DNA of 23,621 nucleotides from a candidate division Zixibacteria bacterium SM23_81 (lineage in GTDB: Bacteria > SM23-81): assembly GCA_001304015.1 (NCBI GenBank), contig LJUY01000044.1, forward strand, positions 1 to 23,621, read 5' to 3'. Each line of letters starts with the position of its first letter. Positions within the stretch are counted from its first letter, which is position 1. A program made the position numbers and the translations under genes. The notes beneath the pieces are model-generated. The model was not told the DNA's origin, did not search any database, and saw only the letters and a list, made by a program, of their open reading frames with translations. Below, one piece after another: positions 1,752 through 23,621 of the stretch.

Positions 1752-2330
1752 TTAAAAATCACACCTCACGACCAATCCCACCTCCCACCTCTCCTCCTGC
1801 CATGTCTCCAATCCTAACGCAAAGGGTCCCTCATCGAATCGGTACAGGTGAGCGTCTACGTAAGCATCCACGATGCTCAGGAACTTGACCCCGGCAAGAT
1901 ACCACAGGTAGGTATTGCGCTTATCTATCCGCCGGGAATAACGAGACCATGCGGCCTCCCTTTCCTGATCACTTTTGGTGGGGTCCTTCCATTCCCGACG
2001 GTCATCCTCAGACCTGCGATGCTCCACCACAGCTCCTCCAATGAGCAGCCCCTCCAGCAGGAAAACCAACCCACTTTTGAGGTATTGCTCATTATACAGC
2101 TGCCCCCACCCCGGCACCAGCCCCGACCTGATCATTGCTCCTAAGGGGGACTTTGTCTTGACCGGAAGGTCTGATGAGGATTCTTCCACTTTGTTCAGAA
2201 TGCAAAAATCGTCCGCACAGCGTCGGTCTGCTAAAGACCGGCCATGGGACGACGAAGCGACCAAAAGAATGAGAATCGCGGCGAGAGCCACCGCCAGCAG
2301 TCCCTTTCCTCTGGCTCTCATAAGGATCAC
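1752..2330 (-). CDS. DUF5683-like small membrane protein
   Basis: A 192-residue protein. A hydrophobic N-terminal segment (about residues 9-28) acts as a signal or anchor. The central part SGLVPGWGQLYNEQYLKSG followed by a second hydrophobic stretch (LVFLLEGLLIGGAVV) is the pattern of DUF5683/YMGG-like proteins, in which a PGxGQxYNxxYxKG motif precedes a membrane helix. Function is unknown for the family. The start is GTG at 2330, chosen because GAGG lies 6 nt before it; the internal ATG at 2321 lacks a good ribosome site. It is the last gene of the operon, 8 bp after the barrel gene and directly before a terminator. Family assignment rests on the motif only. Confidence 0.75.
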   Translation of the reverse strand: MILMRARGKGLLAVALAAILILLVASSSHGRSLADRRCADDFCILNKVEESSSDLPVKTKSPLGAMIRSGLVPGWGQLYNEQYLKSGLVFLLEGLLIGGAVVEHRRSEDDRREWKDPTKSDQEREAAWSRYSRRIDKRNTYLWYLAGVKFLSIVDAYVDAHLYRFDEGPFALGLETWQEERWEVGLVVRCDF

Positions 2331-2338
2331 CGTCGGCC

Positions 2339-3820
2339 TCAGAAATGGCTGAACAGCTTAAGTTCGACGCCCTCAAACTCCGGCTCCCAACGACAGCGCC
2401 CCCCGGTACAGATGAAGCCCCCTTGCCGAGAGCCCACGAACAGCGTGGCGTCATGATTCTCGGTGAGCTGATAATCGAGCTGGATGAAGAACCACCGGTT
2501 GGCCTCACCGGACAGTTTCTGCAAGTCCGACTTATTGGTACGCTCGGTCACCAGGCTCAGAGAAAAATCCGGGGCACGGGTGAACTCCAGGGTGAGCAAA
2601 TGGTCATCGTATTCCCCCCCGTATTCCTCTGTGTGTTGCCCTTGAAGCTCACATCGCAGGGAGTTCAGAGGATCCAGGTAGAGACTTACATCGAGCACTC
2701 CAGTGTAGTTGGTATCTCCTGGAGCCAGTGACTTACCAGCAGCGCCAACGAAGGAAATATTTGCCCCTATCTCCTGGGTGAGTTCCACATATGCCTCACG
2801 GAAAAGAGGCCTGCCATACTTGGCGAAAAGTACCGGGGCTTTTGCCGGCTGCGGTGCACCATTCTGGTGCTCAGCCGTGTAGCTGTAATTGAGCAGAACC
2901 GAAGTCCCCTCAAGGGGTGAGAAACTGGCCTCAGCCTGAACTCCTACCTCGTCCTCGGCATTCAGCTCGCGGGGATGGCGCCGAAACAGAGAATAGGTAT
3001 GCTCTCGCGTCAAGGCAGGAGGGGTGTTGTAGTCCAGCCCGTCAGTGGTGAGCAGGGAAATTTGGTCATAATCCTTCAGCTCAACGGTGCAAGCGAAGCC
3101 AGACAGGGAAAGGCTGGAGGAAAAATAGAGGCCATACCCCAGGTCACGTGTTTTTTTGACCAGCTCGGCATAATAACTTAGCGGCTCGGGGAAAGCTTCG
3201 ATACGGACCGCAGTGATCTCCGTGCCCTTACCCGAGATGTCGGGCGCTTCCAATGTGATATAGCTCCATCCGAAAGTTAATCCCCTAGCTGGTTGAATGT
3301 TCAGGTCGAGACCGCGAATTTCATCGGCGTTGTTCCGATCTTTCCGTGGGGGACGACCAGCCAGAAAGGTGGTTTCTAATCCGCGGTAATTTCCACGCAG
3401 CATCACACCTGTTAATTTGTTATCCACCCGTAAATCCCGGTCCTCATATGAACGAAGAGCCAAGCCCCGGCCAAAGATGGCGTAGAAATCACCTCCCCGC
3501 AACTGGATGCCGTCCTTCTCAGCGGCAAAATAGAGCAGGGCAACCTCTTCTTTTCTCTGCCCTGCTTTGGAGGGCTGAAAGGCCTCAAAGCGAAGGCCAG
3601 TTGTCAGAAAATCCAGGCGATAGGTAACGTCCAACCAGTTTTCCAGGGTTTCCTCATGCTCGTCGGTGTTCCAGGAATACTCCAGCTGGTTGCTCAAGTC
3701 GAATCCAACCAGCTCCACGGCTTTGGCCAGATGCACTCCGCCGAGACTCAAGAGCATATAGAAAAAAATGCCCGTGATAGGGCATAGCTGGAGCAATCTC
3801 GTCATGGCCTCAGTTCTCAC
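2339..3820 (-). CDS. Outer-membrane beta-barrel protein, DUF6029-like
   Basis: About 493 residues with an N-terminal signal peptide (hydrophobic residues about 13-34, ending LAKA). The mature part is rich in alternating aromatic and polar residues typical of beta strands (LEYSWNTDEHEE, VELKDYDQISLL) and closes with a terminal strand ending in Phe (GVELKLFSHF), as outer-membrane barrels do. The stretch GGDFYAIFGRGLALRSYEDRDL is characteristic of the DUF6029 family, which is common in Bacteroidetes-like lineages. It begins with GTG at 3820, overlapping the end of the thioredoxin gene (stop at 3810-3812), which suggests translational coupling; ATG at 3805 is an alternative start. Exact role unknown. 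The coupling to a thioredoxin could mean it needs redox help or acts in export. Confidence 0.78.
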   Translation of the reverse strand: MRTEAMTRLLQLCPITGIFFYMLLSLGGVHLAKAVELVGFDLSNQLEYSWNTDEHEETLENWLDVTYRLDFLTTGLRFEAFQPSKAGQRKEEVALLYFAAEKDGIQLRGGDFYAIFGRGLALRSYEDRDLRVDNKLTGVMLRGNYRGLETTFLAGRPPRKDRNNADEIRGLDLNIQPARGLTFGWSYITLEAPDISGKGTEITAVRIEAFPEPLSYYAELVKKTRDLGYGLYFSSSLSLSGFACTVELKDYDQISLLTTDGLDYNTPPALTREHTYSLFRRHPRELNAEDEVGVQAEASFSPLEGTSVLLNYSYTAEHQNGAPQPAKAPVLFAKYGRPLFREAYVELTQEIGANISFVGAAGKSLAPGDTNYTGVLDVSLYLDPLNSLRCELQGQHTEEYGGEYDDHLLTLEFTRAPDFSLSLVTERTNKSDLQKLSGEANRWFFIQLDYQLTENHDATLFVGSRQGGFICTGGRCRWEPEFEGVELKLFSHF

Positions 3821-4541
3821 ATCCCTCTTTCGCCTGGCTATCGCTTCCCTCCTTTTTTATCTCTTCTTGGTCGCTTCTTTTCTTTTCCTGCGATTCTTCA
3901 CCACTTCCTCCCACTCCTGCACCCTTTTCAGCACCGATACCTTGAGCCCCTTTTTCTCCTTCTGCTCCTCCCTCACCCTCTCGCTCTGATTTTCCCTCCT
4001 CCACATCCTCCTCTGCCACTAACAAGGGCGCTATTTTCTCCGCCAGCACCTGCTCATCGCCGGGGCGATAGCCCATCCGTTTGTAGACCATGCGTCCCTC
4101 TTTGTCCAGCAAAACGGTGAAGGGAAGTGCTCGGAAGTTGAACTTCCGCTGGGTGCTGTAATTGTCGTCCAGCAGAACCAAAAATGTGTAGCGATGTCCC
4201 TTGACGAAGCTGTTAACCTTGGAGAGGCTCCGGGGGGCATCCTCGGAGATGGCCACCACCTTGAGCCCTCGTTCCTTGTGCTGTTCGTAAAGCTCCTGCA
4301 GATGGGGCAGTTCCTTGAGGCAGGGCTTGCACCAGGTGGCCCAGAAAGAGATGAGCACGGGGCCCTGGCCCAACAGATCACTCAGGGCGACCCGCTTTCC
4401 GTCCAGATCCTTGATCTGAAAGTTCGGGGCCATGGGCAGTTTCTCTTTTCCTTCCTTCTCCATGGCGGCGCACCAGGAGACGAGAATCAGGCCCATGAGA
4501 ACGGCCGAGATGAATACAGAATAACCAAATCTTTTTCTCAT
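3810..4541 (-). CDS. TlpA/ResA-like extracytoplasmic thioredoxin with acidic tail
   Basis: A 243-residue thiol-disulfide oxidoreductase. Residues 8-26 form a signal anchor. The AhpC/TSA-type TlpA fold follows: APNFQIKDLDGKRVALSDL, then the active site WCKPC (Cys71 and Cys74), then ALPFTVLLDKEGR with the cis-Pro. It would keep cysteines reduced in the periplasm. After about residue 178 comes a tail of about 65 residues, very rich in Glu, Gly, Lys and Ser, unlike ordinary TlpA proteins of about 170-190 residues; it may be disordered. It lies 21 bp after the sorting-domain gene and overlaps the barrel gene by 11 bp. ATG at 4541 is the obvious start, with AGGA upstream. Confidence 0.9.
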   Translation of the reverse strand: MRKRFGYSVFISAVLMGLILVSWCAAMEKEGKEKLPMAPNFQIKDLDGKRVALSDLLGQGPVLISFWATWCKPCLKELPHLQELYEQHKERGLKVVAISEDAPRSLSKVNSFVKGHRYTFLVLLDDNYSTQRKFNFRALPFTVLLDKEGRMVYKRMGYRPGDEQVLAEKIAPLLVAEEDVEEGKSEREGEGGAEGEKGAQGIGAEKGAGVGGSGEESQEKKRSDQEEIKKEGSDSQAKEGCEN

Positions 4542-4562
4542 GTAAAGGCAATCCTTTTTCGT

Positions 4563-5987
4563 TTAACGAGCCAACACCAGTTTGCGGGTTTGAGAGAATT
4601 CTCCTACTTGAAGTTGGCAAAAGTACACACCGCTGGCCAGATCCCGTCCCAGGTCATCCTTCCCATCCCAGACGACGATATGTCTGCCCGGCCTTAAAAC
4701 CCCAGCCATCAGGGTTCGCACCTCCTGGCCGAGGACATTGTAGATCTTCACAGAGACTGGTTTGGGATTCTCTCCGGGAACATAGAGGGCAAAGGACGTC
4801 GTGGCGTTGAAGGGATTGGGATAGCTGGGTGAAAGAAAGGAGTCCTCGGGTTTCGAAACGAGACCGGCTCTGCTCTCCACAGGAGTCGGTCCCTCGAAGT
4901 AGTTCATAATCCGCTCCATCAGCAGGGCCTGATCGGTGGCATTATCGATGGCCTCGAAGCCGAAGGCCAAATAGACGACCCGGTACATCCCCGTGCTGAC
5001 GGTAAATGCCCCCATGTCTGGCCAGTCATAGAAATCAGTGTAGTGGAAAACCGGATAGGCAAAGTAAGTTTGCCCAAAGATGGGCTCAACGATATCGGGC
5101 GAGGTCTGATTGTTGGCTCCAGCGCCGCCAGATATGTTCAGCGTGCAGCCATCGGATATGCTATTTCCGGCAATGCCATTCAACATTAAGGTGCTCGCGT
5201 ATTCTCCTCCGTATGCCGCCGAAAAGATACTCTCAAACCAGATGATGGTCGAAGAATCCGACTCCCCGCTGGCCGAGTCGCACAGGGCGTAGGCGATGTT
5301 CTGTCCGGAGATGAACAGCCGCCCTCCTCCGTTCAGGTAAGCTGTCAGGGCTTCACGGTCCTCATGGGTCAGCACCGGGGTGGCCTCCCCCGTGAACCAA
5401 ACCACCGCCTGGAAAGGAGCCAGTTCCTCGCTTCCAATGATCGTGGTGGCGTTGTGGAGGGTTCCATGAGTCCAATCCGTGCTGTCCAGAGCGGCTTGGT
5501 AGTAGACCTCGTAGTCTTCGGTTCCATCGTCGTCCACCACCAGGACATCTACCCCCACATTGGTGATGGCCGTCAGCGGGATGGCCACCGCCTGAGCCGG
5601 ATCGGTCAAGGAGCGAACCCTCACGGTCACGGTTCCTACGCCGGTGGCCACATCGCTGGTATCGATGGGTATGATATCGACGGTGAGGGTCTCAAGCTGG
5701 GCCGGGGCCATGATCACATCTGCAGAATCAAAAAAACAGCCCCAGGGGAAACAGGCTATGCTCTGCCAGATTCCGGGCAGATCCTTGTCCATAATCACCC
5801 GGTAGCTATCTGCCTGGGCGCCGGTGTTTCGCAAAACGGTGATAAAGTAGCCGAGGCTATCAGGATCAATCACTTTACCCTGGTTGTCGCAGGTGTAGGT
5901 AAAGGAGTAATCCTGGGCCCATGCGACGCCCACCCCGAGAAAAAGGACGCACATGAGAGCCAGGGGTTTTAAGCCGATCTTTGTCAT
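4563..5987 (-). CDS. Secreted protein with GATase-like middle domain and FlgD-type C-terminal sorting domain
   Basis: 474 residues. Start ATG at 5987 has AAAGG 7 nt upstream and opens a signal peptide (to about AWA at 24). Residues about 150-300 carry VDVLVVDDDGTEDYE and LTAYLNGGGRLFISGQNIAY, a pattern seen in domains attached to secreted peptidases and resembling a glutamine-amidotransferase-like fold; I see no catalytic residues I can name. Residues about 383-474 form the FlgD-like type A sorting domain: SYPNPFNATTSF, then VKIYNVLGQEVRTL, then HIVVWDGKDDLGRDLASGVY, ending QTRKLVLAR. Such tails direct export through type IX-like secretion and surface attachment in FCB bacteria. It starts 10 bp after the Omp28-like lipoprotein gene and is co-transcribed with it. 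Confidence 0.87.
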   Translation of the reverse strand: MTKIGLKPLALMCVLFLGVGVAWAQDYSFTYTCDNQGKVIDPDSLGYFITVLRNTGAQADSYRVIMDKDLPGIWQSIACFPWGCFFDSADVIMAPAQLETLTVDIIPIDTSDVATGVGTVTVRVRSLTDPAQAVAIPLTAITNVGVDVLVVDDDGTEDYEVYYQAALDSTDWTHGTLHNATTIIGSEELAPFQAVVWFTGEATPVLTHEDREALTAYLNGGGRLFISGQNIAYALCDSASGESDSSTIIWFESIFSAAYGGEYASTLMLNGIAGNSISDGCTLNISGGAGANNQTSPDIVEPIFGQTYFAYPVFHYTDFYDWPDMGAFTVSTGMYRVVYLAFGFEAIDNATDQALLMERIMNYFEGPTPVESRAGLVSKPEDSFLSPSYPNPFNATTSFALYVPGENPKPVSVKIYNVLGQEVRTLMAGVLRPGRHIVVWDGKDDLGRDLASGVYFCQLQVGEFSQTRKLVLAR

Positions 5988-5997
5988 CGCAAGCCTT

Positions 5998-7005
5998 TCA
6001 CCGGGAGAGCCCCGCATACATTGAGCTGCCAGCCGCCAGGACCTCTTTGCTGAGATAGTCCTGGAGAAAATAGACGGATAAGATCTGCTCCCCATTCCAT
6101 CCTGGCTGGAGCTCGGTTTCCTCCAAACGATACAAGGTGTCGCCGGCAGCGACGTTCATACCTTCTTCTCCATGAGCCTGAGGGCGTATTTCCCGCATGA
6201 CATAATAAAAATCCTTCTCGCCGTTGATTCCCGGGGCCTGGCTCAGATGGATTTCCCTTTCCAGTATGACGAAGAAACCCCGCAAATCACTTGAGACCAC
6301 GTTTTCCAACCCGATGATCCGGGCTGTACCCCGCCAGGTGGAACCGGTCACGGTATCCGTCACGGCGATGATCGCGGGAGAAGGCTCGGCTAATCTGCTC
6401 TCCACAGCCGCGAACATGGCCAAGGAGTCGGTGGAACCTGGACTTATCACCCCATCCACAAAGAGAACGGGAATAGTGGAGACTCCATAATAAGTATTTC
6501 TGGTGATGTTCTCAAAGCTGGCTGCTTCGTAAAAGGGATCTCCCTCCCAAGGATGATATTCGAGGCCCACCACCTTTTCCGGCCCCAACGTTTCCAGCAA
6601 CCCGTTGATGATCTCATTGGTGGCGGGACAAGGCATACAATTTACGCTGGTGAAGTGCTCCAGTAGAACCACTCGCGCGCTGCTCATGATGAAAACAGCC
6701 TCTACCACTTGTCCGACAGATACGGTGACCTCCTGCGGCGAGCTCACATACCCCTCTAAGTCAACTCTGACAGTGTGGGATCCAATGGGAACGTCCTTCA
6801 GGGTGTCCGGGGTTACCTGCTGGGAATCCTCCTCGTCCAGAAAGATGGCCGCTCCTGGGATGCTGGAGGAGACGAAGATGAATCCCGTGAGAGGCTGCGT
6901 GGGATTCTTCTGGCCGCAGCCACTGAACAGGGCCATCGCAAACAAAGCGACAGCCAAGCCTCCTAGAATTATCTTGACCGCAATAGGAATATATCTGGTC
7001 GCCAT
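5998..7005 (-). CDS. Omp28-like lipoprotein with PEGA and thioredoxin-like (CMPC) domains
   Basis: 335 residues. Start ATG at 7005 follows GGAGG at 6-7 nt spacing and starts a lipoprotein signal ending in the lipobox FSGC (Cys30). Residues about 41-106 look like a PEGA domain (SSIPGAAIFLDEE, IGSHTVRVDLEGY). From about 110 on it matches Omp28-type thioredoxin-fold proteins: VVLLEHFTSVNCMPCPATNE with Cys123 and Cys126, and GVSTIPVLFVDG with the cis-Pro. It probably sits on the periplasmic or outer face of the envelope. It is the first gene of the five-gene operon, and the cysteine reference for the two neighbouring TGA-containing paralogs: its first active-site Cys aligns with their TGA. A strong terminator separates it from the gene upstream; I see no clear promoter of its own in the 47-bp gap to that terminator. 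Confidence 0.88.
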   Translation of the reverse strand: MATRYIPIAVKIILGGLAVALFAMALFSGCGQKNPTQPLTGFIFVSSSIPGAAIFLDEEDSQQVTPDTLKDVPIGSHTVRVDLEGYVSSPQEVTVSVGQVVEAVFIMSSARVVLLEHFTSVNCMPCPATNEIINGLLETLGPEKVVGLEYHPWEGDPFYEAASFENITRNTYYGVSTIPVLFVDGVISPGSTDSLAMFAAVESRLAEPSPAIIAVTDTVTGSTWRGTARIIGLENVVSSDLRGFFVILEREIHLSQAPGINGEKDFYYVMREIRPQAHGEEGMNVAAGDTLYRLEETELQPGWNGEQILSVYFLQDYLSKEVLAAGSSMYAGLSR

Positions 7006-7044
7006 AGAAACCCTCCATCCACTATCTGACAAACTCGAAATTAC

Positions 7045-7083
7045 AAAAAAAACCTCCGGAGCGCAAGCAAAAAGCTCCGGAGG
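7045..7083 (-). terminator. Strong rho-independent terminator after the first TGA-containing paralog
   Basis: Perfect 10-bp stem CCTCCGGAGC (7083-7074) with GCTCCGGAGG (7062-7053), 11-nt loop, followed on the minus strand by eight T (7052-7045). It ends the transcript of the gene at 7150-8259, making that gene a single-gene unit. Confidence 0.92.
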
Positions 7084-7149
7084 TCTGGTTGAAAATCCTG
7101 AGAATGCCAAATATCTTCGGACAATTAAGCAAAAGGCTTGATAGAAGTC

Positions 7150-8259
7150 TCATTTCCGCTCTGGCGGTTCTATATTGGTCACATGCCCGTCGAACTCACC
7201 AACCGCCTGCGAAAATCCCGACTCCTTCTCGCCGGCGACGGCCGTCACCTGATAGTAATAATGGGTCAAGGTATCGCCCACCGTGCCGGTATCGTCTAGG
7301 TAGAAAGCCTCCGCTGTGGAGTCAAAGGGGGGTGGGCTGGGCGAGAAGAAGGGCACGGTGTCCCGATAGACGTGATAGAGATCCACCTCTATGGGATTGC
7401 CATTGGTATCGACCACAACCGGCGACCACTGCAACAACAAATCATTCTCGACCAGGTCGATGGTCAGGTCGTCTATCCCGTCCGGCACGGGGGTGAGCAC
7501 CGGCTTCTGGATGGCCTGGAGCACCTCTTGAGTACTGTTGTCCTGAACAAAAGCCACGATTCTGCAATTCTCCACCGCCCACACTGTTAGTATGGGGAAA
7601 TCTTGGGAGACGGTCACGGTCTCGCCCTCGGCGATGGTGATGGGCACCCCCAAGTGATCGGGGCGATAATCCCGCAGCAACTGATTGTAAGTCTTTCCTC
7701 CATAGTATACGCCGTCCTCGACGACGGCCACGCGCACCCGCAGGGTGGTGAAGGGAATGGTGTCCGTGGCCACCACCTCCACGTGGGCGGTACCACTGTC
7801 GGCCTTGGGAAAATCGACCTGAAGATCAAGGGTGACGGGACTGGACACAGACAACCTGTTACCAATCAATATTTTATAGTCTGACCTCGTGGCAGGAACG
7901 CTGCCTGAATGACCCGTTTTATCTGTAATGCCATCGGCCCACAGGGTGGGCGTCCAATGGGCCCAACCCTGACCTGGAACGAGGGTTGCCGGATACCAGA
8001 AAAACCTATCATAGGCATCCTGGGAATATCCCCCACAGGCATTATGCACTTCATTTCGAATTACGGCTAACTCAGAAGGGGCGAAATCGTACTCGACAAC
8101 ACTGTCAAGCGCCGGATTGGCGATTGTGCAGGCCCCTCAGTAGCAACTGGTAAACAATTCCGCCAGCACACAGCGCTGTGTGGCGCCCACGGAGCCAACC
8201 AGTAGCAAACCCAGGTAAAAACTGATTACCCAGAATACAATTAGCTTCTTTTTTTGCAT
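7150..8259 (-). CDS. Secreted Omp28-like thioredoxin-fold protein, predicted selenoprotein (Sec41, UxxC)
   Basis: 369 codons when TGA at 8137-8139 is read through. ATG at 8259 has a strong GGAGG 5 nt upstream and opens a signal peptide (hydrophobic residues about 6-26). Next comes RCVLAELFTSCY, then TGA as codon 41, then GACTIANPALDSVVEYDF in the same frame with no break. This makes a UxxC motif (U41, Cys44) of thioredoxin type; the cis-Pro is at 104 in WTPTLWADG. A C-terminal fibronectin-like domain (about 265-369) includes LLLQWSPVVVDTNGNP. The paralog at 8552-9649 has TGA at the same codon, and the lipoprotein at 5998-7005 has Cys there. The gene ends with its own TGA stop at 7150-7152. 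A caller that treats TGA as stop would report only a truncated ORF from about 8049. The function, thiol or peroxide redox chemistry in the envelope, is inferred. Confidence 0.85.
8110..8139 (-). promoter_or_regulatory. Candidate SECIS hairpin after the in-frame TGA (first paralog)
   Basis: Directly 3' of TGA (8139-8137), 14 nt are followed by CGCC (8122-8119), loop AATCC and GGCG (8113-8110). The loop begins 18 nt after the TGA, inside the spacing used by bacterial SECIS elements. A further weak CTG/CAG pairing could form a lower stem, using CAG just 3' of the span. The loop lacks a G, which many bacterial SECIS loops contain, so this is weaker than the element in the second paralog. Confidence 0.4.
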
Positions 8260-8324
8260 GTTTCCTCCAAGTCAAAATGGCTGAGAACAAAAACAGGACT
8301 TTTTTCATTTCGTCCTTAATTTAC

Positions 8325-8353
8325 ATCTTATCATATCTCTCGCTTTTTGTCAA
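8325..8353 (-). promoter_or_regulatory. Sigma70-type promoter of the first TGA-containing paralog
   Basis: Minus strand: TTGACA (8353-8348), 17-bp spacer, TAAGAT (8330-8325), with an extended -10 TGA directly upstream of the -10. The -10 lies 66 bp from the ATG at 8259, virtually the same as in the second paralog (67 bp). Confidence 0.85.
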
Positions 8354-8551: not shown

Positions 8552-9649
8552 CTACTTTGCGGGGAGAATGTTAATATCCATCTCTCCAACTTGTCCAGAT
8601 AACCCAGATTCCTTACCGCCAGATACGGCCATTACCGAGTAAAAGTAATGAGTTCCAGTGTCTCCTACCACACCAGTATCGTCCACATAGAAGGTGTCCA
8701 CGGTGCTGTCGAGAAGAATACCGCCAAGCGAAAAGAAGGCCACTGTATCTCGATAGATGCGATAGAAATCTACCGCCAAGGGATTTCCCTGAGTGTCTGC
8801 GGTCACCGCTGACCAATCCAACCTCAGGTCATCTCCGACCAGAGTGACTATCAGATCGGCGACCTCCTCGGGGACGGGGACAACGACTGGACTCTGGATG
8901 GCCTGGAGTACCTCCCGGGTGGTATCATTCTGCACGAAAGCCACGATCTCACAATTCTCCGCATTCCAAGCTGTTGGGATGACAAAATTCTCAGAGTGGT
9001 TTACGGTATCGCCCTCTACCATGCTCAGGGGTATACCGAGCGTGTCGGGAAAATAATCCCGCAGAACCTGATCGAAGACCCTTTGTCCGGAGATGAGGCC
9101 AGACTCGATGACGGCCATGCGCAGCTTTAGACCTGTGAAGGCAATCGTATCTGTGGCCACCACCTCCACGTTAACGATACCGCTGTCGTCCTTGGTGGGA
9201 AACTCGATGTGAAGATCAAGGGATAGCGGGCTGGGCACAGCTCGCCGGGCCTCAATTTTGGCCTTATAGACGGACCGAGTTGAATCCACGTCAACGACAT
9301 AGTACGTCTGCTGGTCGACGCCGTCACACCACAATGTAGGAGTCCAATGATCCTCCCAACCGAAGAGCGGATGATAAGTGGCTGGATAATAATTGAATCG
9401 GCTTTTGACTTCGGCTTTATAAAAGATGCTGCCTTCCACATGATTGCGAATCACAGCCAGCTCAGAAGAGCTGAAATCGTACTCGACAACACTGTCAAGC
9501 GCCGCATCGGCGGTCGGACAGTCGAATCACATGGTGCTGGTGAACATCTCAGCCAGCACACAGTGCTCTGTGGCTCCCGGCCTGCTCACCAGAATAAGGC
9601 CAGCCACCAAGGCGAGTCCCAGAAAGAGACACAATTTCTTTGCTTCCAT
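8552..9649 (-). CDS. Secreted Omp28-like thioredoxin-fold protein, predicted selenoprotein (Sec41, UxxC), second paralog
   Basis: 365 codons when TGA at 9527-9529 is read through; stop TAG at 8552-8554. ATG at 9649 has AGGAG 5 nt upstream. A signal peptide (about residues 7-26) is followed by HCVLAEMFTSTM, TGA as codon 41, then FDCPTADAALDSVVEYDF in the same frame: UxxC with Cys44. Cis-Pro 104 is in WTPTLWCDG. The later part (VNVEVVATDTIAFTGLKLRM, and the fibronectin-like end DDTGVVGDTGTHYFYSV) aligns throughout with the first paralog. Next to the TGA the two genes are nearly identical in DNA (GCGCTTGACAGTGTTGTCGA in both), so they are a fairly recent duplication that kept the TGA. Independent promoters suggest separate control. 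Alternative readings, sequencing error or pseudogene, are unlikely because both copies have the same TGA and otherwise open frames. Confidence 0.85.
9492..9529 (-). promoter_or_regulatory. Candidate SECIS hairpin after the in-frame TGA (second paralog)
   Basis: After TGA (9529-9527) and 5 nt comes a two-part stem: CTGTC (9521-9517) pairs with GACAG (9496-9492); inside, CGCCG (9512-9508) pairs with CGGCG (9504-9500), with internal loop CGAC/CTT and apical loop ATG. The apical loop starts 19 nt after TGA and contains a G, matching the general bacterial SECIS plan. Part of the pairing is also imposed by coding for ADAALD. Confidence 0.55.
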
Positions 9650-9897: not shown

Positions 9898-10023
9898 CTA
9901 TTTGCTGGATAGAAGGCTTCTATCCAGCTCCCCGACCAGTCCGGAGAACTCCGATTCTTTGTAGCCAGACACTGACGTCACAGCATAAAAGTGATGTGTC
10001 CCGGTATCGCCCACTACTCGAGT
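9898..10023 (-). pseudogene. C-terminal remnant of another Omp28-like paralog
   Basis: The minus-strand frame ending at TAG (9898-9900) reads RVVGDTGTHHFYAVTSVSG, then YKESEFSGLVGELDRSLLSSK. This is clearly homologous to the last ~42 residues of the gene at 8552 (VVGDTGTHYFYSVMAVSGGK, then ESGLSGQVGEMD). Homology stops at about 10023, where A/T-rich sequence and the promoter region of fbaB begin. No start codon or signal peptide precedes it, so it is a truncated copy. The TGA-bearing N-terminal part is absent. Confidence 0.85.
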
Positions 10024-10056
10024 AAGGTCCTATCAAAAAAATTTTTTATTTTCCCC

Positions 10057-23123: not shown

Positions 23124-23621
23124 TCATTTCACAGACGAGATGTCCTTATCGAACTCCCCAACCACCCGGGACCAGCCCGACTCCAGACCACCGGCCACGG
23201 CGGTGACATAATAAGATCCGTTGGCCTGGGTATCGCCTACATGACCACAAGAGCTATCCAGGTATGACAGCTCCTGAGTAGAGTCGAGAAGGGTCTTGGG
23301 GCCAAGGACCAAATAGAGACTCGTGTCCTTGAACACCCGATAGTAATCTACCGCCAGGGAATGGCCCCATTTGTCTTTCGTCACCGGAGACCAAGTGAGT
23401 AGCAGCGATGAACCGGCCAAAGTAAGCTCCACATCCCCTACGGTCGCCGGGACCTGAGATACGGGAATCCACGTCTGAATGCTCTGCAGCACCTCCCTGT
23501 TGGTGGTGTCGCCCTGCACAAAGACCACCAGATCGCAGTTCTCGGGAAGCCACTGGGGGTCCAGGGTGAAATTTGTGGTGTCACGAAAGACTTGTCCCTG
23601 TTCGATGGCGAAGCTCACGCC
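23124..23621 (-). CDS. Omp28-like paralog, C-terminal part (5' end beyond right edge)
   Basis: 166 codons visible. Sequence such as WLPENCDLVVFVQGDTTNRE, VLQSIQTW, LTLAGSSLLLTWSPVTKDKW, then GHVGDTQANGSYYVTAVAGG and VGEFDKDISSVK aligns with the end of the paralogs at 7150 and 8552 (WAVENCRIVAFVQDNSTQE, LQAIQ, LLLQWSPVVVDTNG, VTAVAGEKESGFSQAVGEFD). So it has the same C-terminal fibronectin-like domain. The N-terminal thioredoxin-like part lies outside the window; whether it carries TGA or Cys cannot be seen. It ends with TGA at 23124-23126, so TGA works as a stop in this family member. GVS at the edge corresponds to GVPITIAEGE of the first paralog. Confidence 0.85.
   Translation of the reverse strand, partial: GVSFAIEQGQVFRDTTNFTLDPQWLPENCDLVVFVQGDTTNREVLQSIQTWIPVSQVPATVGDVELTLAGSSLLLTWSPVTKDKWGHSLAVDYYRVFKDTSLYLVLGPKTLLDSTQELSYLDSSCGHVGDTQANGSYYVTAVAGGLESGWSRVVGEFDKDISSVK

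Follow-up and report, generated by a model that had tools for sequence, protein, structure and literature searches.

The closest described relatives of the proteins considered here belong to GOS_C, a family first predicted in 2008 from ocean metagenomes on the basis of 74 sequences with Sec and 312 with Cys, and described with a thioredoxin-like fold (PMC2398784). A 2026 catalogue and review lists this family as "Hypothetical protein GOS_C", with the motif UxxC and the accession NF045500 (PMC13188914, Table 1). NCBIfam names the same model (Omp28_seleno) "Omp28-related selenoprotein". The original prediction had guessed at an undescribed family; that guess does not hold, given that the NF045500 model exists and GOS_C was predicted in 2008 (PMC2398784; PMC13188914). 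No paper on the protein described below turned up in a literature search that combined Omp28 with selenoprotein or selenocysteine.

We analyzed a 23,621-nucleotide stretch of DNA (hereafter, the window) from a candidate division Zixibacteria bacterium. Like NF045500/GOS_C members, its proteins of interest are Omp28-like, carry a UxxC motif and are thioredoxin-like by profile match. Sequence comparison indicates that in one gene, gene A, the UGA at codon 41 is very probably decoded as Sec under the direction of a hairpin; the product would be an exported oxidoreductase, probably with a thioredoxin fold. The UxxC selenoprotein that had been predicted is strongly supported, by the Sec machinery of the genome, the TGA/Cys column of homologs, paralogs and the hairpin.

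Reading frame and domains of gene A

Gene A and its associated signals lie on the minus strand:

7150..8259, minus strand: gene A, predicted to encode an Omp28-like selenoprotein of 369 codons; UGA as Sec at codon 41, ending in TGA at 7152-7150
8137..8139, minus strand: UGA of gene A, predicted Sec codon, first position of UxxC
8263..8268, minus strand: ribosome-binding site GGAGGA, 5' of the gene A ATG at 8259, read from sequence
8325..8353, minus strand: gene A promoter-like TTGACA-17 nt-TAAGAT (8353-8348 and 8330-8325), a consensus match only

Translation of 8259-7150 with TGA as Sec yields 369 residues and reproduces the frame originally reported: a single internal TGA (codon 41, 8139-8137) followed by 328 open codons. 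The motif reads TGA-Gly-Ala-Cys, or U-G-A-C, within the residues TSCYUGAC. The ribosome site, promoter-like pair and signal peptide assigned to ATG 8259 are all visible in the sequence, the last as a hydrophobic, signal-peptide-like N-terminal stretch ending in VGSVGA. The Omp28-like assignment also stands, with Pfam Omp28 (PF11551) matching residues 117-255 at 45.9 bits, above the curated gathering cut-off of 34.9. No match was found in Pfam for the C-terminal domain (residues ~258-366). This domain occurs at more than 30 further sites in the same genome, often within long open frames.

As had been anticipated, standard gene calling shortens gene A: the ORF call begins only at GTG 8049, 3' of the motif. 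The call could be taken at face value, with translation restarting at this GTG to give a truncated product; however, such a protein would be without the export signal and the motif, and a restart would account neither for the interchange of TGA and Cys among homologs nor for the conserved hairpin (both described below). We consider this reading very unlikely. The dN/dS ratio 3' of the TGA is ~0.24-0.38, and by this sequence-based measure purifying selection is acting downstream of the TGA.

Paralogs in the window and elsewhere in the genome

A second gene of the same kind, absent from the original prediction, is the next gene upstream of gene A:

8552..9649, minus strand: gene B, predicted to encode another Omp28-like selenoprotein, of 365 codons; Sec falls at codon 41 in TMUFDC, and the product shares 55% identity with A
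9527..9529, minus strand: UGA of gene B, predicted Sec codon
9716..9744, minus strand: gene B promoter-like TTGACA-17 nt-TAAAAT, a consensus match only

Gene B contains one TGA only, in the same column as that of gene A (context FTSTM-TGA-FDC), and its match to PF11551 (54.1 bits) likewise exceeds the gathering cut-off of 34.9. The third paralog, L016 on contig C32, again has TGA in this column (FTSTT-TGA-GAC), and its C terminus carries, judging from sequence, an NPFN-type sorting tail.

Two partial copies were also noted on the minus strand of the window. The segment at 9916-10041 is a remnant that matches the C-terminal region of gene A at 55% identity; it holds one TGA and one TAG, and looks like a decayed further copy. 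At 23124-23621 lies the C-terminal part of another Omp28-like paralog, broken off at the contig end, beyond which its motif column would lie.

Selenocysteine machinery and genetic code

The genome that harbors the window has a complete set of Sec genes, the presence of which the original prediction had proposed as a check. selD, selC, selB and selA (L074, L001, L010 and L009), all above curated cut-offs, form one cluster on contig C7 (G000 contig C7:38206-44279), and the tRNA-Sec, at 79.2 bits, exceeds the gathering score of 47. The selD gene has its own in-frame TGA within AGUAAK, which we take to be the known Sec/Cys site of the SelD enzyme, and provides an internal control for the reading of UGA as Sec in this genome.

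UGA also terminates 13 of the 20 window genes, gene A among them, and has thus not been reassigned as a whole. This bears on the alternative that the internal UGA is read as some other amino acid, whether through a reassigned code or by generic readthrough. Any code with TGA as a sense codon leaves the frame open, as this alternative would have it, but the use of UGA as a stop, the limitation of TGA to the column held by Cys in homologs, and the presence of Sec machinery with a Sec-type selD all speak against it, and we regard it as highly improbable.

Sec and Cys forms in related genomes

Related loci were surveyed with an HMM that permitted TGA anywhere and did not permit TAA or TAG. TGA opens the CxxC motif in 20 distinct domains (21 rows, one a duplicate) and Cys does so in 34, and no TGA was found elsewhere in the surveyed Omp28-like domains. 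This restriction of TGA to one exact column is more than chance would provide. In a direct genome search, one of the matches listed over the domain had TAG and none had TAA. At the column in question homologs have either TGA or Cys, and not the random stops that the original prediction had set against it; an in-frame UGA aligned with the Cys of homologs is a feature of bacterial selenoproteins.

The 20 Sec domains are spread over 15 genomes, including a genome of the same family (G001) with TGA at the same column. Three Sec copies are present in the genome of the window and four in G108, in whose phylum the search covered two genomes. All 15 genomes with the TGA form carry tRNA-Sec. In the 14 other than that of the window it scores over the cut-off without exception, versus 7 of 16 comparison genomes, which were chosen from family hits and not at random (Fisher p=0.0009). 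On the tree, the Sec label requires six changes, two of which are forced by well-supported branches; a Sec sequence from G213 and a Cys sequence from G342 are sisters (support 100/99).

Two further observations concern individual loci. Of the five Omp28-like domains that form a single run in G108 (G108:C186:34489-44359), TGA is present in two and absent from three. One Omp28-like domain, L094 (G107:C4), has Asp in the aligned motif column (TTTTDMENC), which may reflect a shifted alignment or loss of the first Cys.

The survey also allows us to weigh whether the TGA of gene A is a true premature stop, either a sequencing error or a lesion in a Cys-gene copy that is decaying. Several Omp28-like paralogs and the degraded remnant with TGA and TAG at 9916-10041 lend this idea some plausibility. 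It is contradicted by the same-column TGA in three genes here and 17 elsewhere, with none at other places in the domains, by purifying selection 3' of the TGA, and by the co-occurrence of the TGA form with tRNA-Sec. The chance that gene A is such a pseudogene or error appears exceedingly small.

A candidate bSECIS hairpin

Published bSECIS rules (PMC13188914) were applied to the region following the UGA codons. Both window genes have a similar candidate element:

8092..8109, minus strand: gene A bSECIS-like hairpin CUUGACA-GUGU-UGUCGAG; apical loop 34 nt after the UGA, loop beginning with G
9482..9499, minus strand: gene B bSECIS-like hairpin, sequence and spacing as in A

In gene A the stem-loop begins 27 nt after the UGA and comprises 8 contiguous base pairs with the loop GUGU at +34 (-9.4 kcal/mol). 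Across the surveyed set, a contiguous stem of at least 6 bp that fits the bSECIS spacing rule is present in 17/20 Sec genes versus 5/34 Cys genes (p=4e-7). A hairpin of 6-8 bp at exactly +34 nt, with the loop GUGU or AGUU, occurs in 11 of the 20 Sec genes, both window genes included, and at this position all 34 Cys genes have at most 3 bp and no such hairpin; the hairpin was noticed on the same sequences as were counted, so these counts lean in its favor. Of the nine Sec genes without a hairpin at +34, six offer a candidate of at least 6 bp at +17 or +18; in the other three (L038, L052 and L085) no stem exceeds 5 bp.

Within the 11 genes with the +34 hairpin, 96% of stem cells are paired, compensatory changes have altered both sides in 6 of the 7 pairs, and the covariation score was reached by none of 500 shuffles and by no slid version. 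The codons GCG CTT GAC AGT GTT GTC are letter-identical in four genes whose proteins are 46-56% identical to A. Taken singly, the 60-nt stretch of gene A folds no more stably than shuffles (z 0.21), and folding of the single gene B stretch gives z -0.93 and a different predicted fold. Support for the hairpin consequently comes from comparison. We propose that this conserved hairpin is likely the bSECIS of this branch.

The pseudogene, recoding and restart readings of gene A were each considered and were rejected on the column test, the hairpin, the Sec machinery and purifying selection.

Predicted redox function and gene neighborhood

When 16 Sec members were combined into a profile, it matched the DUF1223 structure 2axo over the motif (E=2e-10), as well as the archaeal thioredoxins 1fo5 (E=6e-7) and 1nho (E=5e-6). 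The motif falls on the CxxC of 2axo and 1fo5 in the profile alignments, and NCBIfam thioredoxin models match several Sec members. Because of these matches to 2axo, thioredoxins and thioredoxin models, the Omp28-like selenoprotein is probably an exported thiol-disulfide oxidoreductase. An AlphaFold model made from a three-sequence alignment has a pLDDT of 38.5, too low for use.

We envisage that SelA, SelB, SelC and SelD of this genome decode UGA codon 41 of gene A as Sec, with the stem-loop that starts 27 nt past the UGA directing insertion. Sec would replace the first, attacking Cys of CxxC to give U-G-A-C. The protein would then be exported by way of its Sec signal peptide and, outside the cytoplasm, could swap thiols and disulfides through a selenenylsulfide bond.

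Two neighboring genes encode proteins with Cys motifs:

5998..7110, minus strand: Cys-form Omp28-like lipoprotein with a PEGA domain, VNCMPC; downstream neighbor of gene A
3810..4541, minus strand: TlpA/AhpC-TSA-type thioredoxin-fold protein, CKPC

From its position, the TlpA-like protein is a possible redox partner. The minus-strand genes at 1752-7110 comprise the Cys-form Omp28 lipoprotein, a FlgD_ig/Por_Secre_tail secreted protein, the TlpA-like redoxin, DUF6029 and DUF5683, and possibly act as one unit for surface redox or secretion. The order of Sec form, Cys form and secreted protein recurs in a relative, L043 (a Candidatus Zixiibacteriota MAG).

Comparison with known families

All 16 gathered Sec members match the NF045500 model. 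However, genes A and B are set apart by score, reaching 41.2 and 32.6 bits, respectively, against a curated cut-off of 200, and no match over this cut-off was found in the 386 genomes surveyed. Since they fall so far below it, we file the window genes outside NF045500 itself, as what appears to be a divergent, unnamed branch of the known Omp28-related selenoprotein kind. Also unlike NF045500/GOS_C, gene A ends in a domain common to many other secreted proteins of its own genome.

On balance, we favor the view that these Omp28-like selenoproteins form a distinct branch, unnamed so far, that has multiplied within single genomes, is present in several poorly studied bacterial lineages and is missed or shortened by standard calls. 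Its members would be Sec-based extracytoplasmic redox enzymes, many with a +34 bSECIS. The window adds well-supported, multi-copy predicted exported selenoproteins from a candidate-phylum bacterium to a family whose original prediction came from ocean metagenome reads, and gives that family a hairpin with compensatory changes as its likely bSECIS. The curated cut-off of NF045500 misses this branch. The use of these results lies in annotation correction; they open no new kind of biology.

Other relatives can be placed alongside. The domain found in A and B is that of the Omp28 family outer membrane lipoproteins (NCBIfam NF033782; PF11551), but A and B carry Sec instead of Cys, lack an evident lipobox and score 29 and 52 bits, below the NF033782 cut-off of 150. 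Among solved structures, 2axo (Atu2684) of DUF1223 (PF06764) comes closest by profile, and its alignment spans the motif. DUF1223 matches 10 of the 16 Sec members; gene B matches weakly (19.5 bits, cut-off 30.7), and in gene A no match was found at E<=1. Finally, the placement of Sec first in CxxC is shared with Sec-containing thioredoxins and thiol:disulfide interchange proteins (UxxC; PMC13188914, Table 1). Unlike those UxxC thioredoxins, the window proteins have an export signal followed by a redox domain that is fused to Omp28 and to an additional C-terminal domain.
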